Shown piece after piece: positions 3,869-55,505 of a DNA stretch of 56,741 nt. The notes under the pieces were generated by a model. That model searched no databases. It worked only from the letters and a program-made list of their open reading frames with translations, and was not told the origin of the DNA. The position numbers and the translations under genes were made by a program. Location: positions 1-56,741 of the forward strand of contig VGDY01000006.1 in assembly GCA_016869555.1 (NCBI GenBank), written 5' to 3'. Positions within the stretch are counted from its first letter, which is position 1. Every line of letters begins with the position of its first letter. Source of the stretch: Alphaproteobacteria bacterium. Its GTDB lineage: Bacteria; Pseudomonadota; Alphaproteobacteria; Rhizobiales; Beijerinckiaceae.

Positions 3869-3893
3869 GCAAGGCCGCTGGTTGCGGCCTTGC
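3869..3893. terminator. Strong hairpin just past the antitoxin gene
   Basis: A perfect 10-bp stem GCAAGGCCGC / GCGGCCTTGC with a TGGTT loop, one base past the antitoxin stop codon on the minus strand. It lacks a clear T-tract on either side, so it may be a weak terminator or an mRNA-stabilising 3' hairpin rather than a full intrinsic terminator. Confidence 0.5.
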
Positions 3894-3894
3894 G

Positions 3895-4347: not shown

Positions 4348-4415
4348 ATTGCGTGCTCCCAAGGTGTCATACAGGTGACCAAATGGACAGGTTTTCCCAT
4401 CCAAAAAATGCGCCA

Positions 4416-4763: not shown

Positions 4764-4790
4764 TCTGGCCCCGCTCGGGTAAGATGAACG

Positions 4791-4828
4791 CTTATCATAA
4801 TGATAAGTTCCATGCCAAGACGATTCAA
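4791..4828 (-). promoter_or_regulatory. TA promoter with a perfect palindrome over the -10
   Basis: On the minus strand TTGAAT (4828-4823), a 17-bp spacer and TATCAT (4805-4800) form a good sigma-70-like promoter 37 bp before the toxin start. The -10 lies inside a perfect 17-bp palindrome, half-site CTTATCAT around a central A (4791-4807). A dyad over the -10 is where an autorepressing antitoxin would bind. Confidence 0.65.
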
Positions 4829-5288
4829 TAGGCATTGGTAAATTTCGGCGCAGTATGTTGCTCATGTGCAACATCCGCGATGATAAAATCATGTATTAAC
4901 AAATAGTTAAACGAGTAGTGCGATTGTGCGCTAGGGCCGCGTGCTCGAAACAGCCCATTGGGGCTAACACCATGCCGTTTTCCAGCACTTTTTTTTGATC
5001 CAAAACCAAACAAGGCACATCGTTTCTGCCCAGTATTCCTATGGCTTCACCTATACCGAGGTGTTGGGCATGACAGGCGTTGAACAGTTCGGAACGCTGT
5101 CTTAAAAAAGCGATCCCCTCGGCGGCAAGGCGCGAGGGGATCGAGAAGGCGCGGAGAGACAGGGAGGAGGGGACGCCGCGCCGGTAAACTCATTCGCGCC
5201 GCTCAAGCGCAATTTTGGAGCATGGCGGTTTTCTATAGGACTAACGTCCGGCTGTCAAGGAATATATTCCAGATGCGGAAAATGTCCC
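4829..5288. other. Gene-free stretch, end of AT-rich island
   Basis: No convincing coding region. The left part is AT-rich leader DNA upstream of the TA promoter; composition rises back to the chromosomal level after about 5100. The stretch contains the terminator of the YcgN-like gene at 5104-5143 and otherwise nothing I can name. Short open frames here lack ribosome-binding sites and coding-like composition. Confidence 0.6.
5104..5143 (-). terminator. Intrinsic terminator of the YcgN-like gene
   Basis: A perfect 11-bp stem CGATCCCCTCG / CGAGGGGATCG (5111-5121 and 5133-5143) is followed on the minus strand by a run of six T after a single C. It lies about 145 bp past the stop of the minus-strand gene at 5289. 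Confidence 0.8.
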
Positions 5289-5801
5289 TCACCACCGCGC
5301 CTTCTTCGGCCAGCGCTTGGGCCACAGCCGGATAAAATCCGGCAGATCGTCGGTGTCGACATCGTCCTCGCCCGCTTCGATCCGGCCGCGGGCCGAGACG
5401 CCGGCGCAATGGACGCTCTTCGGATCGCCGGAGATCAGCGGATGCCAGGGCGGCAGCGGCTTACCCTGAAAGCGCAGGAGATAGGCGCAGGTCGGCGGCA
5501 GCCAGCGAATATCCTTGAGCTTTTCAAGCGTTAGCCGCACGCAGTCGGGCACGTAGCGACGCCGGCGCGGATAGTCGCCGCAGCGGCAGCTCTCCTGGTC
5601 GAGCAATTTGCAGGCGACGCTCGTGTGATAAATCGCGCCGGTGTCCTCGTCTTCGAGCTTGACGAGGCAGCAGCGCCCGCACCCGTCGCAGAGCTGCTCC
5701 CATTCGGCGCGGGTCAATTCCGCCAGCGGCTTTTCCCAGAACGGCGACTCGATCCGCGCCGGCGCGGCCGGCAGGGCATTTTCGCCTTTTTTTAACGCCA
5801 T
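5289..5801 (-). CDS. YcgN-family cysteine cluster protein (UPF0260)
   Basis: 170 residues from the ATG at 5801 ([13 protein letters not shown]); longer starts are possible but lie outside the conserved region. The family signature is clear: [21 protein letters not shown] followed by [14 protein letters not shown], then [25 protein letters not shown] and PPTCAYL. The conserved cysteines suggest metal or Fe-S binding, but no enzymatic role is established for the family. It is divergent from the penicillin-binding protein gene, with a 142-bp shared upstream region, and ends at a strong terminator. Confidence 0.88.
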
Positions 5802-5943
5802 TCTTCTCTTTCGGCTTGCCGCATTGCGCGCTGGAAACCATAACGGCATGTGGGTCGCGCGGACTGTCGTCAAGATGGCTTAAAAAGTGTTAAAGTCCAC
5901 GTAGCGCCGGTAAGTATGATCGGCGTGAGGGAGCATTCGAGCT

Positions 5944-8181
5944 GTGTTGAAGCGTTTCCAGGCTTCCGCTTTCGTCAAGCGTGTCAAGCGCATCCTGCTC
6001 GGGTTCGACGCGCTGATCGACTCCGCCATGTATCAGAGCGGGCGGCGGGCCCGCGAGCGCTATGAGGATTTCTCGACCTTCATGGAGCGCTTCCACGTCT
6101 CGGGCGTCGCCCGGGTCGGGGTGGAGCTGTCCTGCGAGGCGCTGACTCTCGGCCTCGGCGCCGGGATCGTCGCCATGGCGCTGGCCTCCTCGGCCTTTCA
6201 GATGACCAGCGACGAGAACTGGCTCAAGCAGACCGATCTCGCCGTCACCTTCCTCGACCGCTACGGCGCGGATGTCGGCCAGCGCGGCATCAAACATGAC
6301 GACGCCGTGCCGCTCGAACAATATCCCGACTATCTGATCAAGGCGGTGCTGGCGACGGAAGACCGCCGCTTCTATGAGCATTTCGGCATCGACGTGATCG
6401 GCACGCTGCGGGCGCTGACCGTCAATGCGCGTTCGTCAGGGGTGGTGCAGGGCGGCTCTTCGATCACCCAGCAGCTCGCCAAGAATCTTTTCCTCTCTAA
6501 CGAGCGCACCATCACCCGCAAGATCAACGAGGCCTTTCTGGCGCTTTGGCTCGAGCACCATCTGACCAAGCGCGAAATCCTCAAACTCTATCTCGACCGC
6601 GTCTATATGGGCGGCGGCGCCTTCGGCATTCAGGCGGCGGCCGAATTCTATTTCGGCAAGTCGGTCAAGGACGTGACGCTCGCCGAAGCGGCGATGCTCG
6701 CCGGTCTGTTCAAGGCGCCGACGAAATACGCGCCGCATGTCAATCTGCCGGCGGCCCGCGCCCGCGCCAATGACGTGCTGAACAATCTCGTCGTCTCGGG
6801 CCTGATGACCGAAAGCCAGATCATCGCCGCGCTGCGCAATCCGGCGACGCCGATCGACCGGGCGCGCGAGACGAGCCCCGACTGGTATCTCGACTACGCC
6901 TACAGCGAAATCCGCAGGCTCGCTCAGGAGGGCAAGCTCGGCGACACTCGCGTGCTCAGCGTGCGCACCGCGCTCGACTCCAACGTCCAGCGGCGCGCCG
7001 AAGAAGTCGTCGAGACCAATCTGCGCGAGCAGGGCCGCAGCTTCCGCGCCAAGCAGAGCGCGGCGGTGGTGATGGAGCCGGACGGCGCGGTTCGCGCCAT
7101 CGTCGGCGGGCGGGACTATGGCGCGAGCCAGTTCAACCGCGCGACCGACGCCGCGCGCCAGCCGGGCTCCTCCTTCAAGCCCTATGTCTATCTGACCGCG
7201 CTGATGAGCGGCAAATACAAGCCGACGACCATCGTCACCGACCGGCCGACCTGCATCGGTAATTATTGCGTCCATAATTACAGCGGCGGCTACGCCGGCT
7301 CCATGCCGCTCGCCATGGCGTTGGCGAAATCCTTGAACACAATCGCCATCCAATTGTCGCAGGCGATCGGCAATGGCGATTCGCGGATCGGCCGCGCCAA
7401 AATCATCGACACCTGCCGGCGTCTCGGCATCACTACGCCGCTTGAGGATACGCCGTCGCTGCCGGTCGGCCAGAGCGACGTCATTCCGCTCGAACATTCG
7501 GCCGCTTACGCCGCCTTCGTCAACGGCGGAAAGAAGGTCACGCCCTACGCCGCCGTCGAAATCCGCAACCGCCAGGGCGATCTGCTCTATCGCCACGACC
7601 GCGACGCGCCGCCGCAAAAGCAGGCGGTGCCCTACGACAAGGTCGTCGAACTCGCCGGCATGATGAAGAAGGTCGTCGAGGAAGGCACCGGCAAACGCGC
7701 CCAGCTGGGCCAGGGCATCGACGTCATCGGCAAGACCGGCACCACGAACGGCTACAAGGACGCTTGGTTCTGCGGCTTTTCCGGCACGATGGGCGGCTGC
7801 GTCTGGTACGGCAATGACGACAATGCGCCGATGAACAACATGACCGGCGGCACGCTGCCGGCCGGCACCTGGCATGACATCATGGCCTATGCGCATCAGG
7901 GCGCGACCTTGAAGCCGATCGTCGGATTGCGGCCTGATCCCAAAGGCGCGACGGCCGCCGCCAACGCCAATGTGGTGAAACCCGTCGAACTCGGCGCCCC
8001 GCAGCGGCCCGCGACCTTGTCGAAGAGCGCGATCCAGGCGCTCGAATCGATACAGATGAAGATCAAGGCGGTCGGCGGCGACAAGCAGAGCGCGCTCGAG
8101 GCGCCCGAACCCGTTGCGTCGGGCGCCGCGCCGCAGGCGCTGCGCGAAAGCCACGCAGCCGACGGCGGCGTCATCAGATAG
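5944..8181 (+). CDS. Class A penicillin-binding protein (glycosyltransferase/transpeptidase)
   Basis: 745 residues from a GTG at 5944. A cytoplasmic N-terminus and one membrane segment (about residues 65-88) precede a family 51 glycosyltransferase domain with ATEDRRFYEHFGID and QGGSSITQQLAKNLF, then a transpeptidase domain with the catalytic SSFK tetrad (about residue 409), SLN (about 463) and KTGTTNGYKDAWF (about 597). It polymerises and cross-links peptidoglycan in the periplasm. The C-terminal 80 residues are Ala/Pro-rich without a recognisable domain. It resembles the PBP1A-like proteins of Rhizobiales in size and order. The next gene starts 17 bp downstream and may be cotranscribed. Confidence 0.92.
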   Translation: MLKRFQASAFVKRVKRILLGFDALIDSAMYQSGRRARERYEDFSTFMERFHVSGVARVGVELSCEALTLGLGAGIVAMALASSAFQMTSDENWLKQTDLAVTFLDRYGADVGQRGIKHDDAVPLEQYPDYLIKAVLATEDRRFYEHFGIDVIGTLRALTVNARSSGVVQGGSSITQQLAKNLFLSNERTITRKINEAFLALWLEHHLTKREILKLYLDRVYMGGGAFGIQAAAEFYFGKSVKDVTLAEAAMLAGLFKAPTKYAPHVNLPAARARANDVLNNLVVSGLMTESQIIAALRNPATPIDRARETSPDWYLDYAYSEIRRLAQEGKLGDTRVLSVRTALDSNVQRRAEEVVETNLREQGRSFRAKQSAAVVMEPDGAVRAIVGGRDYGASQFNRATDAARQPGSSFKPYVYLTALMSGKYKPTTIVTDRPTCIGNYCVHNYSGGYAGSMPLAMALAKSLNTIAIQLSQAIGNGDSRIGRAKIIDTCRRLGITTPLEDTPSLPVGQSDVIPLEHSAAYAAFVNGGKKVTPYAAVEIRNRQGDLLYRHDRDAPPQKQAVPYDKVVELAGMMKKVVEEGTGKRAQLGQGIDVIGKTGTTNGYKDAWFCGFSGTMGGCVWYGNDDNAPMNNMTGGTLPAGTWHDIMAYAHQGATLKPIVGLRPDPKGATAAANANVVKPVELGAPQRPATLSKSAIQALESIQMKIKAVGGDKQSALEAPEPVASGAAPQALRESHAADGGVIR

Positions 8182-8197
8182 CGGCGGGAGCGCTTCC

Positions 8198-8788
8198 TTG
8201 GACCTTAGGCCTTATGCGAATTATCTGCGCGCCGGCTCGGCGATGATCGCCGGCCTCGCGATCGGCCTGCTGGCGACCGTGCTGTCGCTCAACGCCGGCT
8301 ATGGCTTCAATTCCCTGCGCGCCGGGCCATGGGCCGCCTGGCCCCATATCGGCGGCGCCGACATCGATCCTTATGCGCGGGCGGTGATCTCGCGTTCCGG
8401 CGAAGCGCCGCTCGGCCGCGATCAGGGACTGGCCTTTATCGCGCGCGCCGACTCCGACGGCGCGGCGCTTGACGGCGAATGCGCCTATCGCATCGTCGAT
8501 CCGATGCCGGCGGCGCGTTTCTGGACGATCGCGCTCGCCAGTCCCGACGGCAGGCTCGTCGCCAATCCCACCGAGCGTTACGGCTATTCCTCGGTCGATG
8601 TTCTGCGCAAGGAAAACGGCGCTTTCGAAATCGACGTCGCCCGGGAAGCGCGGCCCGGCAATTGGCTGTCGCCGGGACAGGCGCAGGGTTTCGTCGTCAT
8701 GCTCCGGCTCTATGATACGCCGCTCGACATCGAGTCTAATCCCGATCCCAATTCCTTTCCAAAAATCGTGAAACTCGGATGCGCCTGA
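8198..8788 (+). CDS. DUF1214 membrane-anchored protein
   Basis: 196 residues if started at the TTG at 8198, which has GGGAG seven bases upstream and avoids overlap with the penicillin-binding protein gene. A single membrane segment at about residues 14-34 (AMIAGLAIGLLATVLSL) is followed by a periplasmic domain of the DUF1214 type, with ARAVISRSGEAPLG, YRIVDPMPAARFWTIAL and the terminal SNPDPNSFPKIVKLGCA. The domain usually pairs with DUF1254; here the partner gene follows with a 10-bp overlap. Function is unknown. An internal ATG at the membrane segment is a less likely start. Confidence 0.78.
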   Translation: MDLRPYANYLRAGSAMIAGLAIGLLATVLSLNAGYGFNSLRAGPWAAWPHIGGADIDPYARAVISRSGEAPLGRDQGLAFIARADSDGAALDGECAYRIVDPMPAARFWTIALASPDGRLVANPTERYGYSSVDVLRKENGAFEIDVAREARPGNWLSPGQAQGFVVMLRLYDTPLDIESNPDPNSFPKIVKLGCA

Positions 8789-43757: not shown

Positions 43758-43837
43758 CGTCGGCGCGCCGCGCTCATGGTTTTGCGGCGCCGACGGCTTA
43801 AATGACGAGATGCAACCGTCGATCGGTCAGAGCTGCG

Positions 43838-45241
43838 ATGAACGAGTCTTCTGCTTCCGCCGACTCCCTTCGGGCGATGTTCGCCTCTGCGATTTCGGAC
43901 ATGTATCAGGCCGAAGCGCCGCAATATCGCGCGATGAAGGCGCTTGTCGCCGAAGCGAATGGGCGATGTCTCGCCGAAGATCCGCAACTGAGGCGGCGAC
44001 TCGTCGAAAGCGGCGAGTTGGAACGACTCGACGTCGAGCGCCATGGCGCCATTCGCGTCGGGACGGCCGAGGAACTGTCGACGCTGCGCCGGCTGTTCGC
44101 GATCATGGGTATGACGGCGGTCGGCTATTACGATCTGTCGGTCGCCGGACTGCCCGTGCATTCGACCGCCTTCCGGCCGATCGACGAAGCCGCGATGCGG
44201 GCGAGCCCGTTCCGCATTTTCACCTCGCTTCTCCGGCTCGATCACATCGCCGATCCGCAGGCGCGCGAGATCGCGGCAAGGGCTCTCGCTCAGCGCGACA
44301 TTTTCACGCCGCGCTGCCGGATGCTGATCGATATCCATGAGAAGCGTGGGTTCGACGATGAAGAGACGCGGGAATTCATCATTGAAGCGGCGAAGACATT
44401 CCGCTGGAACGGGCAGGCGACGGTCTCGTCCGCCGTCTATCAGCGGCTCCATGCGACGCATCCGCTGCTCGCCGACATTGTTTGCTTCAAGGGGCCGCAT
44501 ATCAACCATCTCACCTTGCATGCGCTCGATATCGACGCCGCGCATGCCGCGATGGCGGCGCATGGCATGAATGCGAAGGCGGTCATCGAAGGGCCGCCGC
44601 GCCGGCGCCGCCCGATCCTGCTGCGCCAGACGAGCTTCAAGGCGAATCCCGAGCCTGTCGACTTCATCGAGGAGGACGGGCGGCGCGCGAGCGGCGCGCA
44701 TACGGCGCGCTTCGGCGAAATCGAACAAAGGGGCGCGGCGCTGACCGCCAAGGGACGCGCGCTCTACGACCGGCTTCTCGCCGAGGCTCAGGCCGAGGCG
44801 CCGCTCGCGGCGGATGGCGCGAATGCGCAAGCTTATAATGCGGCGCTGGTCAGACGCTTCGCGGCCTTTCCCGATGATGCGGCGACGCTGAGACGCGAGA
44901 AGCTCGCCTTCTTCCTCTATTCTCCAGATGCAAGCGCGCGGGGAGGGGAGTTGGCGTCTCGTCCTTCGGTCGAGGATCTTCTGCGCGCCGGAGCCCTGCG
45001 CGCCGAACCGATCCTTTACGAAGACTTTCTGCCGGTCAGCGCCGCCGGCATCTTTCGGTCGAATCTCGGCGATCAGCGCGCGGAAGAATTCATCGAGCGC
45101 GCCGATCGACGCGCCTTCGAGACGGCGCTGGGCGCGCCGGTCCTTGACGAATTCGCGCTCTATGAAGAGGCGGAAACGCGCTCTCTAGCAATGAGCCTTG
45201 AGGCGCTTGGCCTCGATTGCGTCGCCCGGCTTCAACCCTGA
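43838..45241 (+). CDS. hglS: 2-oxoadipate dioxygenase/decarboxylase (DUF1338, HglS-type)
   Basis: 467 residues from the ATG at 43838; an ATG at 43802 would add 12. The DUF1338/VOC-like protein has GTAEELSTLRRLFAIMGMTA, GYYDLSVAGLPVHSTAFRPI and KGPHINHLTLHALDID, plus RFGEIEQRGAALTAKGRALY. The two histidines and the glutamate of these motifs correspond to the Fe(II) ligands described for Pseudomonas HglS, which converts 2-oxoadipate to D-2-hydroxyglutarate. It follows the ALDH7 gene by 80 bp. Confidence 0.9.
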   Translation: MNESSASADSLRAMFASAISDMYQAEAPQYRAMKALVAEANGRCLAEDPQLRRRLVESGELERLDVERHGAIRVGTAEELSTLRRLFAIMGMTAVGYYDLSVAGLPVHSTAFRPIDEAAMRASPFRIFTSLLRLDHIADPQAREIAARALAQRDIFTPRCRMLIDIHEKRGFDDEETREFIIEAAKTFRWNGQATVSSAVYQRLHATHPLLADIVCFKGPHINHLTLHALDIDAAHAAMAAHGMNAKAVIEGPPRRRRPILLRQTSFKANPEPVDFIEEDGRRASGAHTARFGEIEQRGAALTAKGRALYDRLLAEAQAEAPLAADGANAQAYNAALVRRFAAFPDDAATLRREKLAFFLYSPDASARGGELASRPSVEDLLRAGALRAEPILYEDFLPVSAAGIFRSNLGDQRAEEFIERADRRAFETALGAPVLDEFALYEEAETRSLAMSLEALGLDCVARLQP

Positions 45242-45280
45242 ACAAGCGCATTCGGCCGAATTTGGCGCGACGGAGAGGGA

Positions 45281-46564
45281 ATGACCATGGACAGCGCGCG
45301 TTACCACAAGGCCAGCATCGGAGACCGTCCGCTTCAGCCGGAAACGCTGATGTTGAGCTATGGCTACGACCCGGCGCTGTCCGAAGGGTCGGTCAAGCCG
45401 CCGGTGTTTCTCACGTCGACCTTCGTGTTTCGCACCGCCGAGCACGGCCGCGACTTCTTCGATTACATGGCCGGCCGCCGCACGCCGCCAGAAGGCGAAG
45501 AGTCCGGACTCGTCTATTCGCGCTTCAATCATCCCAATCTCGAGATTGTCGAGGATCGTCTGGCGATTTACGAACATGCCGAATGCGGTCTCGTCTTTTC
45601 CTCCGGCATGGCGGCGATCGTCACGACGATTCTCGCCTTCGCGCGTCCGGGAGAAACCATTCTGCGCAGCCGTCCGCTCTATGGCGGCACCGAGGTTCTC
45701 ATCGACAAAACGCTCGCCCCGTTCGGCTTGACCGGCGTCGGCTTCACCGACGGGCTCGACGAGGAAAACATCCGCGCCGCGGCCGAGCGCGCGTTGGACA
45801 TCGGGCGCATCGCGATGATTTTCATCGAGACGCCGTCCAATCCGATGAACAGCCTCGTTGACATCGCGCTCGTGCGGCGCATCGCCGAGGACATCGCCGG
45901 CAAGCAGGGCGCGCGCCCGGTCATTTGCTGCGACAATACGCTGCTCGGCCCGGTGTTCCAGTCGCCGCTCCGGCACGGCGCCGATCTGTCGCTCTATTCG
46001 CTGACCAAATATGTCGGCGGGCACAGCGATCTCATCGGCGGCGCCGTCGTCGGCGGCTGCGCCCATCTCAAGACGATTCGGGCGATGCGCAGCGCCATCG
46101 GCACGCAGCTCGATCCGCATTCCTGCTGGATGCTCGGACGCTCGCTCGAAACGCTGTCGCTGCGCATGAACCGGGCCGCCGAGAACGCGGCGGTCGTCGC
46201 GAAATTTCTGGCAAACCACCCCAAGGTTGCCGGCGTTCACTACCCGCCGCTGCTGCCGCCCGATCATCCCCAGCGCATGCTGATGGAGCGCCAGTCCACT
46301 TCGGCCGGCTCGACCTTCTCATTCGAGGTCGTCGGCGGGCAGGCGGAGGCTTTCGCCTTTCTCAATCGGCTTCAGATTTTCAAGCTCGCCGTGAGTCTGG
46401 GCGGCTCGGAATCCCTGATCTGCCACCCGGCGACCACGGTGCATTCGGGGTTGACCGAGGAAGCCCGGCAGGAAATCGGCATCACCCCTTCGCTCATTCG
46501 CGCCTCGATCGGCATCGAGCATCCCGACGATCTCATCGCCGACCTCACGTTGGCGTTCAGTTGA
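45281..46564 (+). CDS. Cystathionine gamma-synthase family PLP enzyme
   Basis: 427 residues from an ATG with GGAGAGGGA directly before it. The Cys/Met metabolism PLP fold shows [57 protein letters not shown] and the PLP lysine in [16 protein letters not shown], then [18 protein letters not shown]. Substrate cannot be told from the sequence. It follows hglS by 39 bp; paralogues of this subgroup are often found in lysine-catabolism clusters, suggesting it acts there rather than in methionine synthesis, which is inference. Confidence 0.85.
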
Positions 46565-46684
46565 TCAAGCGTGACCTTTGCTTTTGGCGACCGGAAGCGT
46601 CGCGCCGCGCCCTGTCAAAACGCCGCGCCCGGACATATGTATCAATTGCCTGTTAGCGGTCCGAAATCGAGCAGAGACTGGACA

Positions 46685-47017
46685 ATGAGAATAGCTAAGG
46701 AAATACGAGACGACCGCACCGTTTTGAGCATCCAGGAAGATCGCATCGATGCGCATAATTCCGGCGAGCTTAAGAATCTGGTCCTAAAAACGCTGGAAGG
46801 CGGCGCAAAAAACGTGGTGATCGATCTCGCTAGAGTACAATTCATCGACAGTTCGGGTCTGGGCGCTCTACTTTCCGGCTATAAAAACGCGAATTTGCGC
46901 TCGAGCGGGTTTGCGTTGGCGGGGCTGCAGCCGCGCGTCAGATCGATGTTCGAATTGACGCGGCTGCATCGGGTGTTCGACATTTATCCAAGCCTGCAAC
47001 TGGCGCTGAGCGCCTGA
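46685..47017 (+). CDS. STAS-domain anti-anti-sigma factor (RsbV-like)
   Basis: 110 residues from the ATG at 46685; the open frame is longer but upstream sequence is not conserved. The STAS domain has VVIDLARVQFIDSSGLGALL with the phosphorylatable serine in DSSG. It is the antagonist in a partner switch: when unphosphorylated it binds the anti-sigma kinase and frees the kinase's target. First gene of the cassette, 14 bp from the kinase gene. Confidence 0.9.
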   Translation: MRIAKEIRDDRTVLSIQEDRIDAHNSGELKNLVLKTLEGGAKNVVIDLARVQFIDSSGLGALLSGYKNANLRSSGFALAGLQPRVRSMFELTRLHRVFDIYPSLQLALSA

Positions 47018-47030
47018 ATGGGGACGGGCG

Positions 47031-47465
47031 GTGATCGAAATGTGCGAGACGGCGGTCAATCTGGACATCGTCGTTCCCAATGAAACGCGGTATTTGCGTT
47101 TTGTTGGCGCGGTCGCCGAACAACTTGCGAGAGAATTGGACATTCAAGAGGATAAGCGCGACACGCTCGCGTTCCATCTCAATCTTGCGCTGACCGAAGC
47201 CGTCGCCAATGCGATTCAATACAGTTCCGCAGCGAGCGAGAAGGACTCCGTTCGGATCTGTCTTTCCGTCAAGGACGCCTATCTTTCCGTGCGGGTCTTC
47301 GATCATGGCGGCGGCTTCGATCTTTCCGCGGTGCCGACGCCCGACTTTGACGAACTTGGCGAACGCGGCCGCGGCATATTCTTCATCCGTTCGGTGATGG
47401 ACTCGGTTCAATATTCCAAGACGGACTCGGGCAATGTGCTCGAAATGCGCAAGAAGATCGCTTAG
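47031..47465 (+). CDS. Anti-sigma factor serine kinase (RsbW-like)
   Basis: 144 residues from a GTG at 47031. A GHKL ATPase domain with the N-box LALTEAVANAIQYS, G1-type VFDHGGGFDLS and G2-type GERGRGIFFIRSVMD. Such kinases phosphorylate the STAS antagonist and hold a sigma factor or other partner. The target is not evident; no sigma factor gene lies in the window. Seven bases separate it from the glutamate dehydrogenase gene. Confidence 0.9.
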   Translation: MIEMCETAVNLDIVVPNETRYLRFVGAVAEQLARELDIQEDKRDTLAFHLNLALTEAVANAIQYSSAASEKDSVRICLSVKDAYLSVRVFDHGGGFDLSAVPTPDFDELGERGRGIFFIRSVMDSVQYSKTDSGNVLEMRKKIA

Positions 47466-47472
47466 CCCTCCC

Positions 47473-50400
47473 GTGCTCGGCCCTCCCGAAACATCGGCGC
47501 ATGAGATTTATCGCCCCTCCGACTGGGATACGGCGGTTCGCCGTTTCCTGCGTCGCGCCGGCCGCCGCGTCGGGCGGGAACTTTCGGCGGATGCGCTGCG
47601 CGGACTGCCGAAGTCCTATCGCCATCTCACGCCAGCGTCGCGCGCCGCGCGCGACATTGCTCTGATCGGGATCAATGACGACAGCGCGCGCGACATCGTT
47701 GAACTTCGCCCGCTGCGCGGCGCCGCCCCCGGCGAAGCGAGCTACGAGATTCGCCTCATCGGCGCGAGGGAGCGTTCGCTGGACGAACTCCTGCCGGTGC
47801 TGCAGAATCTCGGATTGCGCGTCTCGGACCAGATCAGGTTCAAGCTCAATCTCGGCGCCGAGCCATGGTTCATCCGAAGTTTTGCCGTCGAGCCCTCGGC
47901 GCCGAGCGCAATAAGCCTTATGCGCTGTCGCCGGCGGTTGTTACAGGCGCTCGAAGCCGCGCTTTCGGCGGATGTCGAAAGCGACGACCTGAACGGCCTG
48001 ATCCTGGCGACTGAGCTCGACTGGCGCCAGATCGATCTCTTTCGCGCTTACTGCAACTACTATCAGCAACTCGGCGTGAGGGTCGGGCGCGCTCGCATCT
48101 ATCGTGGGCTCTTGGGAAGTCCGGCAGCCGTCGAGCTGCTGTATCGCTATTTCGAAGCGCGGTTCAAACCGGATCGCGAGGGACGCGATTCTTTTGAGAC
48201 CGAGCTTGAAATGCTCACGCCGATCAGGGCTCAACTCGTCGAGGTTCTCGATAAGGTCGCCGACAGCGGCGACGATCGCATCCTGCGCGACCTCTTCAAT
48301 CTCATCGACGCCACGGTGCGCACCAACTTCTACTTCTCCGGCGCATGGGCGCGCAACTTCATCGCTCTCAAGATCAGCAGTCTCGGCGTGTTCAACATGC
48401 CGGCGCCAAAGCCCATGGCTGAGATATACGTTCACTCCGTGTCGATGGAAGGGATACATCTTCGCGGCGCGAAGGTTGCACGTGGCGGCATTCGCTGGTC
48501 GGACAGGCCGGAGGATTTTCGCAGCGAAATTCTCGCCCTGATGCAGACCCAGATGATCAAGAACGCGCTCATCGTGCCGCAGGGCGCCAAGGGCGGTTTC
48601 GTCCTGAAACTTCCCTATGAGGACGCGACGCAACGACAGCGGCTGGGGAAGGAGGCCTATTCGCAGTTCTTGCGCGGTCTTCTCGATCTGACCGACAATC
48701 TGCAGGATTCGAAAATCGTTCGACCGCCGGAGCTTGTCGCCTACGACGATCCCGATCCCTATCTCGTTGTCGCGGCCGACAAGGGAACGGCGAACTGGGC
48801 CGACGTCGCCAATGAAATTTCTCGCTCTTACGACTTCTGGCTCGGCGACGCCTTCGCCAGCGGCGGCGCGCATGGCTATCACCACAAGCGGTTGGGCATT
48901 ACCGCGCGCGGCGCCTGGGTCTGCGTGAGACGGCACTTTTATGAGCTTGGTCGCGATGTCGACGCCGAGACATTCACCGTCGTTGGCGTCGGCTCGATGG
49001 ACGGCGACGTCTTTGGCAATGGGATGTTGCATACGCCGAACATCCGATTGTTCGCGGCCTTCGACGGCCAATACATATTCTTGGACCCGAACCCGGACCC
49101 GTTGGCGTCCTTCGCCGAGCGCCGCCGCTTGTTCGAATCGCCGCATTCGACCTGGCGCGACTATAATCCGGCGTTGCTCTCGCAGGGCGGCGGCGTCTAT
49201 CGGCGCGACGCCAAGGATGTCGCGCTCAGCCCCGAGGTGCGGGCCTGGCTTGGCGTGCGACACAGCGCGCTTGATGGCGAATCGCTGGTCCGTTGGCTGT
49301 TGACGGCGCCCGTCGATCTCTTGTGGATGGGCGGCGTCGGGACTTACGTTAAGGCGAGTTCGGAGACGAATGAGAGCGTCGGCGACCGCGCCAATGACGG
49401 CGCGCGGGTCGATGCGCTGCAGCTTCGCGCCAGAGTCGTTGGAGAGGGCGCGAATCTGGCGTTCACCCAGCGGGCGCGCATCGAATATGCGTTGAAGGGC
49501 GGCCGCATCAATACCGACGCCGTCGACAATTCCGCGGGCGTCGATCTTTCCGATCACGAAGTCAATCTGAAGACCCTGCTGCGCGCGCGGCCGGATAAAG
49601 GCGCGCTCGAAACCGGCGACGCCAATGCGCTGCTCGAATCCCTCACCGAAGACGTTTGCGCGTCGGTATTGCGCGACAACGACCAGCAGAGTCTTTGCCT
49701 GTCGCTGGACCGCGCGCGTTGTCTCGTCCATCTCGATCCATTCATGGATGTCGCCGAACAACTCGAAAACGCCGGTTATATCAGTGCGGCCGCTGACGCC
49801 TTCCCGACGCGCAAGGATGTCGCCGCGCGCGCGGCGAAGGAGTTGACCCGGCCGGAGCTTGCTCTGCTGATGGCGAACGCCAAACTGGCGCTGAAGCAGC
49901 GGCTGCTTGAAGACGAGTCCTTCCTGAAAGGATCTTGGACCGACGAGTTTCTGGCAAGCTATTTTCCCGACTATGTGCGATCTCATTTTCCAGAGCGGAT
50001 CAGAAGCCATTCGCTGGCGCGAGAAATCGCCGTCACCGCGATCTGCAACAGAGTGGTCGATCAGGCGGGCGTCCGCTTTCTGCTGCTCGGCGAGGGATTG
50101 GCGCCGGCGCTGCTCAGCTATGCGGTGAAGCTCTATCTCTCCTTCGATCGAATTTTCGAAGGCGACAGATGGCGCGCGGCTTTTCTGTCGCAAGGCGGGT
50201 TGGGCGCCGCGCAGGAATATCGCCAGTTGCTTCAGCTCGAAGCCTCTCTCGCTTACATGTGCCAATGGGCGATGCGGCGCGGCTATCGACTGAGCCCGGA
50301 CGATGCGGAGATCGAACGCTGGCGTGTTGATCTTCGCGACTACCGGGCGCGCGTTTGCGCCGCCGAACCGGCTGACGGGCTGGGAGAACCCTACTTCGAT

Positions 50401-50877
50401 CGGGTGAGCGATTTTCCTTTCCTTGTCGCGCTCAGCCGGGAGTCGGGAGAAGACATGCGCGCAGCCGGCGCCTGTTTCGATCAGGCGGCGAATCTGTTCG
50501 GACTGCAAAAGCTCACTGCCTTTTTGGAGGAGGTTAAGCCGAGAGACCGGTGGGAGCAGCAGTTGCAGGCCGCGCTCGACGCAAGGATGCGGGATGCGGC
50601 GGCGCGCATCGCCTCGATGCAATTCCTGACCGGCATCGCCGATCCCCGCGCCTTGTTTCGTAACGTCGGCCTCGAATTCCGGCTCGCCGGCCTCGAGCGG
50701 CTGGCCGTCAAACTGGAATCTTCGCTGTTCACGACGCTCACGCCGATTGCGGCCTTCGTCGCCGAGCTGAATGCGCTCGTCGACGCCTGCGACGCCGCCT
50801 ATCGCAACCGTTCCGGCGCGCGCTCGGAAGGGGAGCGGCGCATTCATGGCGTTTCGGCGCAGGCAGGGGTTCCTTAG
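47473..50877 (+). CDS. NAD-specific glutamate dehydrogenase, N-terminally short form
   Basis: 1134 residues if started at the GTG at 47473, versus about 1550-1650 for the usual large (180-kDa class) bacterial enzymes. The catalytic region is complete: GGIRWSDRPEDFRSEILALM, then NALIVPQGAKGGFVLK, GGAHGYHHKRLGITARGAWV, VVGVGSMDGDVFGNGML, LLWMGGVGTYVKASSETNES and VVGEGANLAFTQRARIEYAL. What is missing is most of the N-terminal regulatory (ACT-like) region; only the last such segment (LPVLQNLGLRVSDQ) remains. It deaminates glutamate to 2-oxoglutarate. It lies between the anti-sigma kinase and phosphatase genes and overlaps the latter by 32 bp. A start at 47434 would overlap the kinase gene. Confidence 0.88.
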   Translation: MLGPPETSAHEIYRPSDWDTAVRRFLRRAGRRVGRELSADALRGLPKSYRHLTPASRAARDIALIGINDDSARDIVELRPLRGAAPGEASYEIRLIGARERSLDELLPVLQNLGLRVSDQIRFKLNLGAEPWFIRSFAVEPSAPSAISLMRCRRRLLQALEAALSADVESDDLNGLILATELDWRQIDLFRAYCNYYQQLGVRVGRARIYRGLLGSPAAVELLYRYFEARFKPDREGRDSFETELEMLTPIRAQLVEVLDKVADSGDDRILRDLFNLIDATVRTNFYFSGAWARNFIALKISSLGVFNMPAPKPMAEIYVHSVSMEGIHLRGAKVARGGIRWSDRPEDFRSEILALMQTQMIKNALIVPQGAKGGFVLKLPYEDATQRQRLGKEAYSQFLRGLLDLTDNLQDSKIVRPPELVAYDDPDPYLVVAADKGTANWADVANEISRSYDFWLGDAFASGGAHGYHHKRLGITARGAWVCVRRHFYELGRDVDAETFTVVGVGSMDGDVFGNGMLHTPNIRLFAAFDGQYIFLDPNPDPLASFAERRRLFESPHSTWRDYNPALLSQGGGVYRRDAKDVALSPEVRAWLGVRHSALDGESLVRWLLTAPVDLLWMGGVGTYVKASSETNESVGDRANDGARVDALQLRARVVGEGANLAFTQRARIEYALKGGRINTDAVDNSAGVDLSDHEVNLKTLLRARPDKGALETGDANALLESLTEDVCASVLRDNDQQSLCLSLDRARCLVHLDPFMDVAEQLENAGYISAAADAFPTRKDVAARAAKELTRPELALLMANAKLALKQRLLEDESFLKGSWTDEFLASYFPDYVRSHFPERIRSHSLAREIAVTAICNRVVDQAGVRFLLLGEGLAPALLSYAVKLYLSFDRIFEGDRWRAAFLSQGGLGAAQEYRQLLQLEASLAYMCQWAMRRGYRLSPDDAEIERWRVDLRDYRARVCAAEPADGLGEPYFDRVSDFPFLVALSRESGEDMRAAGACFDQAANLFGLQKLTAFLEEVKPRDRWEQQLQAALDARMRDAAARIASMQFLTGIADPRALFRNVGLEFRLAGLERLAVKLESSLFTTLTPIAAFVAELNALVDACDAAYRNRSGARSEGERRIHGVSAQAGVP

Positions 50878-53479
50878 CGCGATGGAAGCGCTGGCCGCCG
50901 ATCGCGCCATTCTCGACGCCTTTGACGAGGCGCTGTGCGTCGTCGAGTCCACCGGCGCTTTGCGGACGATGAATCGCGCCGCCGAACGGCTGACCGGCTA
51001 TTGCGAGAGCGAGCTGCGCGGCCGCTCCTTCTTCTCGCAGCTTGTCGCGCGCCGCGGCGGCGACGGCGAACCCCCATGGCCGACGCATGCCCGCGAGCGT
51101 TTGTCCCTGCGCCTGCGACGCAAGGACCGAAGCTTGATCGATATTCGCTGCGAGATCGATCCGCTTGCCGGCGACGGCGGCGGCGCGCTCGTCAAGCTTC
51201 GCCCGATCGACGAGGCGGTCAGCGGGCAGGACGCGCTCGACGACATCAGGGAAAAGCTCGAGACAATCTTTGGCGGCATGGCCGACGGGCTGGTGCTGAT
51301 CAACGAGGCCGGCGACATTCTGCTGTTCAGCAAGGGCGCCGAGAAGCTTTTCGGCTATCGCGCCAAAGAAGCGCTCGGCGCGAACGTCAAGATGTTGATG
51401 CCCTCGCCCTATCGCGAGGCGCATGATGGCTATCTTGCCGCCTACAAGAACACCGGCGTCAAGAAAATCATCGGCATCGGCCGCGAGGTCGTGGGACGGC
51501 GAAAGAACGGCTCGACCTTTCCGATGTATCTCTCGATCGGCGAAATCCGGCTCAAGGGAACGCGCTATTTCGTCGGCGTCACCCATGATCTTACAAGATT
51601 GAAACGCGCCGAGGACAGGCTGCTGACGCTGTCCGCCGCCATCGAGCAAAGTCCGATCGCGGTGATGATCGCCAACAGGGATGGCGAAATCGAATATGTG
51701 AACAGCCGCTTCGCGACTCTCACCGGCTATCAGCCGCATGAACTCATCGGGCAAAATCCGCGCATGCTTCAATCGAAGCGAACGGAGCACGATCAGTACC
51801 GTCGTCTATGGGAGAGCATTCTCGCCGGCGTCGAGTGGCGCGGACAGATTCAGGACCGCAGAAAGGACGGCGAGCTCTACTGGGCCTCCGAAATCATCTC
51901 GCCGCTGCGCGACGCCGCCGGCGCGATCACCCATTATCTCGCGATTCAGCAGGACATCACCGAACAAAAGCGCGACAAGGAGGCGCTGTTCGAGAGCGAG
52001 CAGCGCTTCCGCCAGGTCGCCGACATGGCGGGCGACTGGCTGTGGGAGCAGGATCAGGACGGCCGCTACACATACAGCAGCAACGCGGTCGAGGACGTGC
52101 TGGGCATGAGCCCCGATGAAGTCGTCGGCAAGACCTATCTCGACCTCTTCGCCGGGCCGCCGCCGAGCGGCTCGGCCGCGGAGAACATGCAGGCGCCGAC
52201 CGCTTCGCGCCGGCCGTTCCACCGCATCGTCAACCATTATCGCCATAAGAGCGGCGCCGACGTCTATACCGAGTCGACCGGCGCGCCGGTGTTCGACGAC
52301 GACGGCCGGCTGGTCAAATGGCGCGGCGTCGACCACAACATCACCTCGCGCAAAAAATTCGAGGATGCGCTGCGGGTGCGCAACCGCGCGATCGAAGCCG
52401 TGCCGATCGGAATCGCGATCTGGGACGCGCAGGCGCCCGGCGTTCCCAATGTCTATGTCAATCCGGCGCTGAGCCGGATCACCGGATTCGCCCGCGAGGA
52501 GCTGCTCGGTCACAGCATGCATCTGTTGCGCGGGCCGGATACCGATCCCGCGGCTCTCGAAGAGATCCGCAACGCCATCGCGCATCGCCAGAGCTGTCAG
52601 GTCACGGTGAAATTCTACCGCAAGGACGGCTCGTCCTTCTGGGATGAATTGTTCATCTCGCCGGTCGCCAATGAGGCGGGACGCATCACCCATTTCGTCA
52701 GCGTGCACGCCGATATCTCCGAACGGCGGCGGATCGAGGAGAGCCGCCACGAACTCGAAATCGCCAAGCAGATCCAGCTGTCGCTGCTGCCGAACGCGCC
52801 GCTGCGCACGCCGCAAATGGAGATCGCCGGAATCTGCGTGCCGGCGATGCATGTCGGCGGCGACTATTTCGACTATTTCGAAAATGCCGGCGTGATCGAC
52901 ATCGTCATCGCCGACGTCTCCGGCCATAGCGTCGGCGCCGCGCTGATCATGACCGAAGTGCGCAGCACATTGCGCGCCGAGACGCGAAAGGCCACGAACG
53001 CCCTGAGCGGCCCGGCCGAGCTTTTGCGCGACCTCAACGAGCTGCTGCACGACGATCTCACCGCCGCCGACCTCTTCATCACCATGTTCTACTGCCGCTT
53101 CCTGCCGCAGACGCGCATGCTGCAATATGCCAACGCCGGCCAGAATCCGCCGCTGCTGCTGCGCGCCGACGGCGCGATGTGCGCGCAGCTCGACGCCGAC
53201 GGCCTGGTGCTCGGCGTGATGCGCGACGTCGATTTCAAGGAGGGCCGCATCGAACTCGCGCCGGGCGACAGGCTGCTGTTCTACACCGACGGAATCACCG
53301 AGACGCAAAACCGCCAGGGCGAGTTCTACGGGCTCGAACGCCTGTCCACCTCGTTCATGCAGCATCGCCGCCTGTCGCCGGGCGATTTGATCAAGGCGAC
53401 GCTCGCCGACGTGCGCGCCTTCCGGGGCGAGGCGCAAGCGTCCGACGACATCGCCATGGTGGTGGCGGAGGCGCGCTGA
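50846..53479 (+). CDS. Multi-PAS sensor with PP2C (SpoIIE/RsbU) phosphatase
   Basis: 877 residues from the ATG at 50846 (GGGGAG ten bases upstream, inside the glutamate dehydrogenase end); an ATG at 50882 is also possible. About five PAS domains fill residues 15-630, including FixL-like FGGMADGLVLINEAGDILLF with MLMPSPYREAHDGYL, and PAC motifs such as LAIQQDITEQKRD. No membrane segment. The C-terminal SpoIIE-type phosphatase (about 650-870) has GGDYFDYFE, IADVSGHSVGAALIM, NAGQNPPLLL and FYTDGITETQN, with the metal-binding aspartates. It should dephosphorylate the STAS antagonist on an oxygen, redox or light-type signal. Confidence 0.92.
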   Translation: MAFRRRQGFLSAMEALAADRAILDAFDEALCVVESTGALRTMNRAAERLTGYCESELRGRSFFSQLVARRGGDGEPPWPTHARERLSLRLRRKDRSLIDIRCEIDPLAGDGGGALVKLRPIDEAVSGQDALDDIREKLETIFGGMADGLVLINEAGDILLFSKGAEKLFGYRAKEALGANVKMLMPSPYREAHDGYLAAYKNTGVKKIIGIGREVVGRRKNGSTFPMYLSIGEIRLKGTRYFVGVTHDLTRLKRAEDRLLTLSAAIEQSPIAVMIANRDGEIEYVNSRFATLTGYQPHELIGQNPRMLQSKRTEHDQYRRLWESILAGVEWRGQIQDRRKDGELYWASEIISPLRDAAGAITHYLAIQQDITEQKRDKEALFESEQRFRQVADMAGDWLWEQDQDGRYTYSSNAVEDVLGMSPDEVVGKTYLDLFAGPPPSGSAAENMQAPTASRRPFHRIVNHYRHKSGADVYTESTGAPVFDDDGRLVKWRGVDHNITSRKKFEDALRVRNRAIEAVPIGIAIWDAQAPGVPNVYVNPALSRITGFAREELLGHSMHLLRGPDTDPAALEEIRNAIAHRQSCQVTVKFYRKDGSSFWDELFISPVANEAGRITHFVSVHADISERRRIEESRHELEIAKQIQLSLLPNAPLRTPQMEIAGICVPAMHVGGDYFDYFENAGVIDIVIADVSGHSVGAALIMTEVRSTLRAETRKATNALSGPAELLRDLNELLHDDLTAADLFITMFYCRFLPQTRMLQYANAGQNPPLLLRADGAMCAQLDADGLVLGVMRDVDFKEGRIELAPGDRLLFYTDGITETQNRQGEFYGLERLSTSFMQHRRLSPGDLIKATLADVRAFRGEAQASDDIAMVVAEAR

Positions 53480-53499
53480 GCCGTTTTGCTCGGGCTTTG

Positions 53500-53600
53500 T
53501 CATTCCCGGCAGGCCGCAGGCCTGACCGGGAATCCAGAGCCGCTGCAACAATGCTGGTTTTGCTCTGGATTCCCGATCGCGCTTCGCGCGTCGGGAATGA
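53500..53600. repeat. REP-like repeat, copy 2, as an inverted pair
   Basis: TCATTCCCGGCAGGCCG and its continuation (53500-53533) repeat copy 1 at 9392. Here the element is followed by an inverted partner: GGGAATCCAGAGC (53528-53540) pairs perfectly with GCTCTGGATTCCC (53562-53574), and the outer ends TCATTCCCG / CGGGAATGA also pair, making one 101-base hairpin (REPIN-like). It starts 20 bp after the phosphatase stop codon. Confidence 0.8.
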
Positions 53601-53639
53601 TAACCGGGCCGTTCAAACCGATTTCGCATGGGGCGTATG

Positions 53640-54047
53640 GAGAGGGGCGCGCGAAGATGTCCCGCCGCCGTGCGGCGCGGGGGCGAGCGGTCCGGGACGC
53701 CCCGGCCGTCGCTGGCCGCAGCGCTAAGAATTGTCTTCGACCGCCGGTTTCTCCCGGACACGGATCGCGTCGTCTCGCCGCCTCCGGGCTGAGGGAGCCG
53801 CTCCCCATCGTTCGGGTAACCGACGCCTGCGCCATCCTCGGATATTGCGGTCCGGGCTTTCAAAGCCTGCACATGAGTTTCTTTGAGCCTTGCGGCTCTA
53901 AGAAGCGCTCATGCGTCTCCGCGCAAAGGAGAGAAGCCCAGACCGGCGACGCGCCGCCGGACCAGGGAACGAGGGTCGTTCGTCCCGCCGGATCCGTCCC
54001 TCGCCGGCGCCGCCCGACCCTGAGCCGCGCCCTCGCTTGACGAAGGC
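53640..54047 (-). ncRNA. Candidate structured RNA of about 400 nt
   Basis: No frame here is convincing as protein, yet the DNA is GC-rich and full of inverted repeats. A near-consensus promoter at 54082-54054 points into it. On the minus strand the segment 53913-53872 folds into an extended hairpin: outer CATGAG/CTCATG, then TTCTT/AAGAA, then GAGCC-GCAA-GGCTC capped by a GNRA tetraloop that exists only on this strand. Further stems include GGGAG-CGG-CTCCC near 53795. It does not match tmRNA (no ANDN-like tag or CCA end), RNase P RNA, SRP RNA or 6S RNA as I know them. The 3' end is unplaced; the left limit is a guess at the end of the structured part. Confidence 0.45.
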
Positions 54048-54053
54048 GGGCAG

Positions 54054-54082
54054 AGGATAGGAATTTATTCAGGGGATGTCAA
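54054..54082 (-). promoter_or_regulatory. Near-consensus promoter of the candidate RNA
   Basis: On the minus strand TTGACA (54082-54077), a 17-bp spacer, TATCCT (54059-54054). This is the closest match to the sigma-70 consensus -35 in the window. It lies just past the end of the minus-strand gene at 54111 and has no protein gene downstream in its direction. Confidence 0.65.
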
Positions 54083-54110
54083 GAGGGCACATGCGTTCTT
54101 GTCGTCGCCC

Positions 54111-55289
54111 TTAGCGGCTTTCTCGCCACATGGGAACCGCGCCAATCTCTGCTAACGCGCGTCGTTCTTCGTCGGCAGCCTTGGAAGGGAGATGAACTCT
54201 TAGCACGTCTGGGGACCCGCGATTCCCGAATTCTTCGGCAAAAGCCTTTGTGTCTGCAAAATCGTCGAAATATCGAACTTCTTTCGGGCGCAGAGCGCCG
54301 GGAGAATACACCTCCACGAAATAGTCGCCGGCCCCAGCGCGGCGCTGCGCCTTGCGCAAAAACAGGTCGAGGTATCCCTGCAAGTCATGAAAACTAGCGG
54401 CAGAAAGGCTCTCTGGATACGTCACAGTGACATCGCCCTCGTCTAGCGCGAAAACCTCCTTGCGCAGCCCAGCTTTCGGGGTCTCCGCCGCTGCTGCCGT
54501 CGCTAACGCTGCAGCAATACGGGGCGGTGGCGGCGGCGCTTTAGCCCCTGGAAGTGTTGTTTGAGTTGATGAAGGTGCGGTCAACTCTGACACAATATGA
54601 ACTTCGTTCGTTGGGATGCCCGTTCCACTTTCTCCAACCCAAAGCCATTGTCCGTCCTCTGAAAGACCGATGACTTCGGCCGGAATCTTGAACTGATCCA
54701 CCCCACCGCTAGTCCATTGAATCTTATCCCCAACTTTCACACGTTCTAAGGGTAGGCTGTCAGTTTCTTTATCAACAACATTAGCAGCATCGCTCCCCTT
54801 TGTGAATCGAATCGTCTCGTCGAAAACGCGGAGAAACAGCTTGGCTGCTTCGTCCGTAAACCCTCCCTCGAATTTGAGTTGGCTTATAGCGTGGCTGTCG
54901 TCCGGGCGGCCATGCTTCCAATGTTCCCGGTATTCCGCAATGATTCGCGGTCGAAGCGCCGCCTCGGCTAAAAGCGATTCCCGAATCCCCGGACGCTTAT
55001 CATCAAGAATGCGCCATCCAGTCTCGCTGACTTTGATTTTACGGGCGTCGCCGCCGCCACTCACTTCCGCAAGCCCATAAGCCAGTAGCGCCGCAACATT
55101 GCGGTCTGTGGAGCTGGATTTTGGAGCCAACCCCCAATCTTTCGCAATGTCCGCGACGCGGGCCTCGTAGCGCTTCGCATTGTCGAAGAGCACTTGAATC
55201 CGTTCGACGGCTTTGCCGAGCCCGATATACGGGAAAGCCGGGCTTCGATCCCGCTTACCAGCAGCGTCCTTCGTCTCAACCTGCGTCAT
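54111..55289 (-). CDS. Hypothetical accessory protein with N-terminal winged-helix-like part
   Basis: 392 residues from the ATG at 55289 (MTQVETKDAAGKRDRSPAFP), the first start after the promoter at 55349-55321. Residues about 20-110 (LGKAVERIQVLFDNAKRYEA, then VAALLAYGLAEVSGGGD, RKIKVSETGWRILDD) resemble a winged helix. A middle part (about 170-260) has KVGDKIQWTSG and LSEDGQWLWVGESGTGIPTN, a small beta-barrel-like segment; a Pro/Ala linker follows (PGAKAPPPPPRIAAALATAA), then an alpha/beta tail. Similar proteins occur in mobile DNA; I do not recognise a function. Base composition is lower in GC than the chromosome, and the gene lies beside a tRNA-like gene, so transfer is likely. Confidence 0.6.
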   Translation of the reverse strand: MTQVETKDAAGKRDRSPAFPYIGLGKAVERIQVLFDNAKRYEARVADIAKDWGLAPKSSSTDRNVAALLAYGLAEVSGGGDARKIKVSETGWRILDDKRPGIRESLLAEAALRPRIIAEYREHWKHGRPDDSHAISQLKFEGGFTDEAAKLFLRVFDETIRFTKGSDAANVVDKETDSLPLERVKVGDKIQWTSGGVDQFKIPAEVIGLSEDGQWLWVGESGTGIPTNEVHIVSELTAPSSTQTTLPGAKAPPPPPRIAAALATAAAAETPKAGLRKEVFALDEGDVTVTYPESLSAASFHDLQGYLDLFLRKAQRRAGAGDYFVEVYSPGALRPKEVRYFDDFADTKAFAEEFGNRGSPDVLRVHLPSKAADEERRALAEIGAVPMWRESR

Positions 55290-55320
55290 GATAAGTAGCC
55301 CCAGAAGTTCGATAAGGCAT

Positions 55321-55370
55321 CTGATAGCATGCCTGATAGCCATTGACAATGCTATCAGCGCTGCTAGGGT
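55321..55370. promoter_or_regulatory. Divergent promoters with repeated operator
   Basis: A 10-bp inverted repeat CTGATAGCAT (55321-55330) / ATGCTATCAG (55349-55358) with a third half-site (CTGATAGC, 55334-55341) between. On the minus strand TTGTCA (55349-55344), 17 bp, TATCAG (55326-55321) would drive the hypothetical gene; on the plus strand TTGACA (55343-55348), 16 bp, TAGGGT (55365-55370) would drive transcription towards the tRNA-like gene. The two -35 boxes overlap, so one repressor could control both. Confidence 0.55.
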
Positions 55371-55394
55371 GGCGCTGAGAAGAGGGGGAATCGA

Positions 55395-55505
55395 GTGCTC
55401 AGGAGGGTAAGAGCCCCGCGACGGCCAGCCGACGGCGCAGGGGCGAAGATCATGAAGGGGCCGCTTCCCAGCACGCCAATGATGGGAGAAGCGGCCCTGC
55501 AATAG
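55395..55505 (+). CDS. Possible 36-residue leader ORF before the tRNA-like gene
   Basis: A GTG at 55395 with a GAGGGGG stretch seven bases upstream opens a 36-codon frame (VLRRVRAPRRPADGAGAKIM, ending GEAALQ) that stops 11 bp before the tRNA-like gene. It lies about 25 bp after the plus-strand promoter's -10. No homology is recognised; it may be chance. Confidence 0.25.
   Translation: MLRRVRAPRRPADGAGAKIMKGPLPSTPMMGEAALQ

Follow-up and report, generated by a model that had tools for sequence, protein, structure and literature searches.

A glutamate dehydrogenase gene within a partner-switching gene run

The DNA studied here is a contig of 56,741 nucleotides (VGDY01000006.1, assembly GCA_016869555.1) from an alphaproteobacterium of the family Beijerinckiaceae, called the window below, and the subject is a run of four genes in which a large NAD-glutamate dehydrogenase (GDH) stands among the components of a partner switch. 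The genes are tightly packed and all lie on the + strand. The first encodes a STAS anti-sigma-antagonist-like protein of the RsbV/SpoIIAA type (46685..47017), which matched PF01740 with 76 bits and TIGR00377 above its cut-off, and the second an RsbW/SpoIIAB-like serine kinase of the HATPase_c_2 type (47040..47465; PF13581, 91.6 bits). These are followed by the GDH, a short form of 1134 amino acids (47473..50877; PF05088, 717 bits) and the single PF05088 enzyme that a profile search found in the window's own genome, and by a multi-PAS SpoIIE/PP2C serine phosphatase (50882..53479; SpoIIE, 177 bits, together with PAS matches). The Pfam matches bear out an earlier note, made from the DNA letters alone, that had described the four genes on one strand, and its observation as a whole was confirmed. 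Judged by position, the enzyme gene lies inside the run of switch genes, and the four are presumably transcribed as an operon. The closest named relatives are Methylocystis, from which we take the window genome to be that of a type II methanotroph.

The kinase and GDH genes are separated by 7 bp, exactly as the earlier note had it. A GTG at 47031 offers an alternative kinase start; the start at 47040 is preferred because the relatives L014, L016 and L021 have no valine at the position matching 47031, and the gene probably begins there. The 32-bp overlap that had been claimed between the GDH and phosphatase genes is doubtful, as it needs an ATG at 50846. The phosphatase open reading frame does open further upstream, but the aligned frames of L014-L020 begin no earlier than the codon corresponding to ATG 50882, and this start, 4 bp past the GDH stop, is therefore likelier. 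The statement that no sigma factor is nearby holds for the seven window proteins scanned (43802-55502), among which none was found, neither the remainder of the window nor the wider genome being part of that scan.

The STAS protein, the kinase and the enzyme

The features expected of an RsbU/V/W set were all present, namely a STAS protein with a D-S-S-G motif, a HATPase kinase with N- and G-boxes and a SpoIIE/PP2C phosphatase. The D-S-S-G phospho-acceptor motif was found in 88/88 aligned STAS homologues, and of seven N-box/G-box residues checked in the ATP site of the kinase, six were kept in 92/92 homologues and the seventh in 91. These counts, and the kinase tree described below, omit repeat copies from the same genome or place (L116, L122, L124, L127, L129, L163 and L182) and a distant paralogue, L123. 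The nearest solved relatives were TM1442 and SpoIIAA for the STAS protein, and RsbW (6m36) and SpoIIAB for the kinase. By their motifs, the window proteins look functional as a switch.

The window GDH comprises an ACT3-like domain and HM3, the catalytic domain and a C-terminal domain, and its catalytic-domain motifs are common to 15 canonical enzymes. There was no Pfam match to ACT1, ACT2, HM1 or HM2 (HM3 was found and ACT3 fell below threshold), so that the absence of the N-terminal regulatory region, as first described, is right in substance. Residues 43-949 align by sequence to the 180-kDa enzyme of Mycobacterium smegmatis, L-GDH180, and an AlphaFold single-chain model (pLDDT 81.6, pTM 0.75) compared by Foldseek with 7a1d/7jsr gave TM scores of 0.85-0.86 over nearly the whole length. 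Both are PF05088 enzymes in which the ACT3-like, catalytic and C-terminal parts share a fold, the window protein having 1134 rather than about 1600 amino acids. The N-terminal segment of L-GDH180 includes a PAS in the layout given for it (PMC8175468), and from its start position the window GDH would lack this PAS as well as ACT1 and ACT2.

The phosphatase and its predicted sensors

The first PAS domain considered in the phosphatase (51206..51640, + strand) is of the FixL type, a predicted haem/O2 sensor, and matched the FixL structures 2cmn and 1dp6 with E values of 2e-32 to 1e-31. A histidine and an arginine, which we take to be the residues of the FixL haem pocket, are both aligned in it. 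Among 24 PP2C proteins encoded directly downstream of a GDH, 22 have a FixL-type PAS, with the pocket histidine in 22/22 and the arginine in 17/22; the FixL-type motif was not found in the other two (L102 and L103).

The second PAS (51626..51985, + strand) is related to redox-sensing domains that carry flavin adenine dinucleotide (FAD), matching MmoS (3ewk, E 2.9e-31) and NifL (2gj3, E 1.8e-17), whose PAS structures are described as FAD binders (PMC8694187). A G-x-N-P-R stretch of this domain was found in 19 of the 24 downstream PP2Cs. The third (52382..52756, + strand) is LOV-like, and in the alignment to its best match it has a methionine in place of a cysteine that is presumably the photoactive one, so LOV photochemistry is not expected here. 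Because a FixL-type PAS is usual, and a flavin-type one frequent, in the GDH-adjacent phosphatase, an O2 or redox input to it is likely, haem and FAD being the predicted ligands.

Conservation of the gene order

Searching genome contigs with the window GDH gave 25 loci, 20 of which have STAS, HATPase and GDH genes in that order on one strand; they include loci titled Methylococcus and Methylocaldum as well as alphaproteobacterial bins, and M. capsulatus strain Texas (L027) carries the cassette. In L034 the HATPase-GDH pair lies at the start of a contig, and in L029, L030, L032 and L033 the GDH was found without a STAS or kinase match. The short GDHs of Desulfurella likewise had no adjoining STAS or kinase match. 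The earlier note had proposed a search of genomes for the full gene order. Among 68 linked loci fetched, the first three genes stand in that order in 67, L034 alone differing because its contig ends there, and a PP2C gene follows GDH in 24.

Within the window's family, PF05088 was found in 98/199 genomes. Frames of 1109-1159 amino acids that match PF05088 over its full length are confined to the window's genus, in the eight of its genomes that bear a GDH, the other GDHs of the family being mostly near 1600 amino acids, some of them cut by contig ends. The kinase profile scored 216-261 bits in nine of the 199 genomes, in all nine beside GDH, and the next match was at 71 bits; the nine are the eight genomes with a short GDH together with G172, whose GDH is in pieces. 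The switch is present in 9/20 family genomes positive for PmoA (PF02461) and in 0/179 others, which leaves 11 PmoA-positive genomes without it. PmoA was uninformative within the order of M. capsulatus, where 207/251 genomes matched and where its absence is unreliable, since M. capsulatus Texas (G203) itself gave no match. In a phylum-wide draw the kinase was found at E <= 1e-20 in 2/398 genomes, both of the window's genus; this draw bounds the spread only loosely.

The order of M. capsulatus was then represented by 251 genomes, with the kinase profile matched in 135 (E <= 1e-12) and PF05088 in 144. Linkage was counted from the matches listed, 131 for the kinase (at least 89 bits) and 147 for GDH, the second halves of three split genes being left out and a weak GDH match, G253, being absent from the list. 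The GDHs were divided at 740 bits, a line set after the scores had been seen, into a divergent group of at most 740 bits and the others; the group above the line includes one fragment at a contig edge (G436) and some further genes truncated at contig ends. Among the matches listed, 102/111 divergent GDHs lie directly downstream of a kinase gene, on the same strand and within 5 kb, and 0/36 of the other GDHs adjoin one. When whole genomes are counted (n = 251, with a kinase threshold of 120 bits), 106 have both kinase and divergent GDH, 20 the kinase only, four the divergent GDH only and 121 neither. The frames of the 102 listed kinase-adjacent GDHs are short in 78 cases, intermediate in four and long (1564-1598 amino acids) in 20; three of the long ones were scanned and kept HM1 and HM2, while ACT1 and ACT2 were not detected in these three.

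A GDH standing without the switch genes in close relatives had been named as the pattern that would speak for chance clustering, and it is rare. Only nine of the 111 listed divergent GDHs are not adjacent to a kinase; three of these lie at a contig edge with no more than 132 bases upstream (L121, L179 and L180), five are in genomes with a kinase elsewhere, and one, in G215 (L119), is in a genome without a strong kinase match. GDH and the switch are a conserved unit in two proteobacterial classes, and their clustering is not due to chance.

Two side observations concern individual loci. In G363:C1 and G397:C2 a full-length switch-GDH cassette has PmoA-family genes at a distance of no more than about 10 kb. 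The locus L025 (DYIL01000014.1) is from a bin titled Methyloversatilis universalis, yet its GDH and kinase closely resemble their Methylocaldum counterparts (L026), and as the genome came up in the sample of the M. capsulatus order the title looks wrong.

Phylogeny and co-divergence

In a FastTree phylogeny of 94 GDHs, which omits the split GDH of L034, repeat copies and L123, all linked forms fall in one clade with a support of 1.0. The deltaproteobacterial and Desulfurella enzymes lie outside it and the long linked forms are nested inside. The window enzyme thus sits in a clade with other switch-linked GDHs, separate from the canonical ones; M. smegmatis itself is not in that tree. The possibility that the window GDH is an ordinary canonical enzyme, sitting here by chance, was rejected on account of this separate clade and of the lack of kinase adjacency among the other listed GDHs.

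Divergence was then compared in 28 genomes (30 with RpoB, less G190 and G279). Partial Mantel correlations given RpoB were 0.71 for HATPase-GDH, 0.75 for STAS-GDH and 0.66 for STAS-HATPase (p 0.0005 each), so the divergence of the three proteins is correlated more closely than RpoB accounts for. Six genomes of the window's genus share 92.1-97.5% identity in RpoB but 50.1-83.4% in GDH, 60.7-93.5% in STAS and 58.0-89.1% in the kinase, and the low ends of these within-genus ranges overlap those between alpha- and gammaproteobacteria (40-56% for GDH). From these values the set seems to have moved between methanotroph genomes, or to have been replaced, as a unit.

Kinases without a linked glutamate dehydrogenase

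In 18 of the 251 genomes the kinase was found without any GDH match, although in three of these (G282, G314 and G449) the kinase gene is fragmented or sits at the edge of a contig. Two loci with unlinked kinases bear on the same metabolic node. In L096 (8017-11285, genome G214) the kinase gene overlaps the gene for 2-oxoglutarate dehydrogenase E1 by 4 bp, with no STAS match at that locus, and in L099 (1875-7507, genome G226) an E1 gene lies near the kinase. Three V/A-type ATPase genes follow E1 in L096 and GcpE follows it in L099, and on account of these next genes neither E1 gene is in a usual suc operon. The family-level sample for G214 consists of G214 alone.

Other neighbours of kinases lacking GDH include a peptidase M3, ABC transporters, an MscS-type channel, a Na/H exchanger, a phosphatidylserine decarboxylase and a formyltransferase, and are tentatively read as chance neighbours. 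An MscS-type channel of 1135-1144 amino acids precedes the STAS-kinase pair in L108 (G318), L110 (G421; assigned by clustering only) and L117 (G425), and in L117 a GDH also follows; on the far side of the channel L108 and L110 have a Na/H exchanger. In L091 (G297) and L100 (G276), at about 3600-8410, a PAS-PP2C gene, a PmoC/AmoC-family gene and the kinase stand in a row on one strand, with no STAS or GDH matches; L091 has a second, different HATPase before the phosphatase.

The region upstream of the window operon

The upstream neighbour of the STAS gene encodes a PLP (pyridoxal 5'-phosphate)-dependent enzyme of the cystathionine gamma-synthase family (45281..46564, + strand). Such a gene is present upstream in L010-L022 (13/13) and confined to the window's locus type, with no match in L023-L034. 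A gene for the 2-oxoadipate dioxygenase HglS accompanies it, the two preceding the switch operon at 43802-46564 in the window and likewise in L013 and L017, where two more genes stand between them (of the epimerase and aminotransferase families in L013). This looks like an amino-acid-breakdown cluster upstream of the GDH switch. A CTGT-(T/C)AA block and a TAT-rich block before the STAS gene are kept in most of 11 aligned Methylocystis-type loci, the former at 46612 in the window, 73 bp before STAS.

Discussion

The textbook role of a partner switch is the control of sigma factors, and the three switch proteins of the window are of the same types as those of RsbU-RsbV-RsbW and SpoIIE-SpoIIAA-SpoIIAB, with phospho-acceptor and ATP-binding motifs intact. 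The difference lies in the metabolic enzyme placed between kinase and phosphatase and in the lack of an adjoining sigma gene among the neighbours scanned. The fusion of PAS to PP2C recalls the RsbP-type phosphatases, in which a PAS sensor is joined to a PP2C/PPM phosphatase (PMC3183031), the window protein differing in having several PAS domains, including relatives of the FixL haem and the MmoS/NifL flavin PAS. Switches whose output is an enzyme have precedents in SiaC-SiaD and HsbA-HsbD of Pseudomonas aeruginosa and MtT-MtG of Moorella, described as acting on diguanylate cyclases (PMC7647112). In SiaABCD the enzyme is encoded in the same operon, as GDH is here by gene position; the diguanylate cyclases, however, are signalling enzymes, while the PF05088 enzyme is a dehydrogenase of central metabolism. 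SiaB is a kinase of another type.

We favour the reading that a partner switch responsive to O2 or redox state controls GDH directly and post-translationally, and put its probability, whether the kinase or the STAS protein makes the contact, at about one half. With its haem- and flavin-type PAS domains the PAS-PP2C phosphatase would sense O2 or redox state, and it would dephosphorylate the STAS protein, which in its unphosphorylated form would capture the RsbW-like kinase. Phosphorylation of STAS would leave the kinase free to bind GDH and hold it in a less active state; in a variant modelled on SiaC-SiaD, free STAS would itself bind and activate GDH. Either way the output would be an enzyme and not, or not only, a sigma factor, and the switch would gate the flux between glutamate and 2-oxoglutarate. 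Direct control is the most economical reading, physical contact with GDH and the sign of the effect being predictions of it. That the switch controls GDH had been suggested in the earlier note, and the conserved unit makes this part of the suggestion the leading reading.

The kinase is favoured as the part that touches the enzyme because L096 pairs it with an enzyme gene without STAS; against this, STAS correlates with GDH at least as well, which lends the SiaC-like variant some likelihood. A wider proposal, that a methanotroph O2/redox switch controls by direct binding the enzymes of the 2-oxoglutarate node, namely the dedicated GDH clade in most genomes carrying the switch and 2-oxoglutarate dehydrogenase E1 in some without that GDH, is offered tentatively and is on balance doubtful.

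Several observations weigh against direct control of GDH. Physical linkage alone could yield part of the correlated divergence, with no contact needed, and on the kinase tree, which is short (138 columns) and leaves many forks open, linkage must have been lost or gained 11 times, at least six of these changes being forced. GDH and kinase stand apart in the five genomes noted above. Among the kinases found in genomes without a GDH match, that of G231 lies on a contig of 4.4 Mb, and in the 24 unlinked kinases examined the seven ATP-site residues are intact except for a single substitution. With the kinase present in 18 genomes that gave no GDH match, it is probable that GDH is not its sole target, and the switch appears to have some job besides the adjoining enzyme. 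The proposed input is not found at every locus either: PP2C directly follows GDH in only the 24 of 68 fetched linked loci, in five more (L114, L155, L156, L157 and L160) a PP2C gene is close by but oppositely oriented, and the remaining 39 have none within the stretch fetched. Five of the 22 FixL-type PAS domains (L015-L019) carry glutamine for the pocket arginine, and that of the window has an alanine, as in 2cmn, where the other FixL chains shown have arginine. As for 2-oxoglutarate dehydrogenase, the two cases are few and suggestive only, and in L099 an opposite-strand PP2C separates the kinase from E1.

The same 18 genomes, together with the classic RsbU/V/W look of all three switch proteins, would suit an ordinary anti-sigma or regulator switch, in which the kinase binds a sigma factor or other transcription regulator whose gene lies elsewhere, GDH belonging to the regulon and being transcribed with the switch genes. 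The kinase family is nevertheless tied to one GDH group and to none of the 36 other listed GDHs, and no sigma factor was seen among the selected neighbour proteins scanned in the window and other loci, no genome having been searched for one; we regard such a switch as possible but rather unlikely. It is improbable that GDH is instead the input, the enzyme or its substrate state tuning a switch whose target lies elsewhere. The N-terminal domains of the long GDH class have been proposed as metabolic sensors (PMC8175468), and the occurrence of the kinase without GDH would fit, but the short GDHs that make up 78 of the 102 listed linked forms lack most of that N-terminal segment while keeping the catalytic-domain motifs.

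A lack of any functional coupling, the genes sharing no more than a mobile segment and their expression, is likewise improbable. The seemingly horizontal movement of the set and the occasional breaks in linkage are what it would lead one to expect; against it, the order is kept in 67/68 loci while the flanking genes differ, co-occurrence across the 251 genomes is very strong, and in five of the six judgeable genomes with GDH away from the kinase a kinase is still present. That the switch takes over the role of the regulatory region missing from the GDH N-terminus, the other half of the earlier suggestion, agrees with the window's family, where the eight linked GDHs with intact frames are all short and most unlinked ones are about 1600 amino acids, but it is very unlikely and was rejected as a general rule, given the 20 of 102 listed linked GDHs in the M. 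capsulatus order that are full length, the HM1 and HM2 kept in the three scanned, and the short unlinked GDHs of Desulfurella.

The earlier note knew of no described system of this form, and among the open-licence PMC matches listed no paper describes a switch-GDH unit. Three papers name partner switching and glutamate dehydrogenase jointly, and judged by titles and the beginnings of abstracts these deal with coral or anemone symbiosis. One paper names a glutamate dehydrogenase in M. capsulatus Bath, the term 'anti-sigma' being absent from its main text (PMC10623323), and in a review of STAS-only proteins the terms 'dehydrogenase' and 'diguanylate' were both absent (PMC8256260). The cassette is probably directly testable in M. 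capsulatus, since strain Texas carries it and M. capsulatus Bath, like Methylocystis parvus, is reportedly amenable to genome editing (PMC9942187).

A metabolic output, if true, would widen what a partner-switch module can do, and would to our knowledge be the first case of such a switch with a central metabolic enzyme as its output. Nearly all type I methanotrophs are described as without 2-oxoglutarate dehydrogenase activity, yet M. capsulatus holds the genes (PMC517821). Control at the junction of glutamate and 2-oxoglutarate bears on that puzzle and on the use of methanotrophs for feed protein and nitrogen fixation, and the switch beside GDH suggests that nitrogen metabolism may be controlled directly in this way in many methane-eating bacteria.

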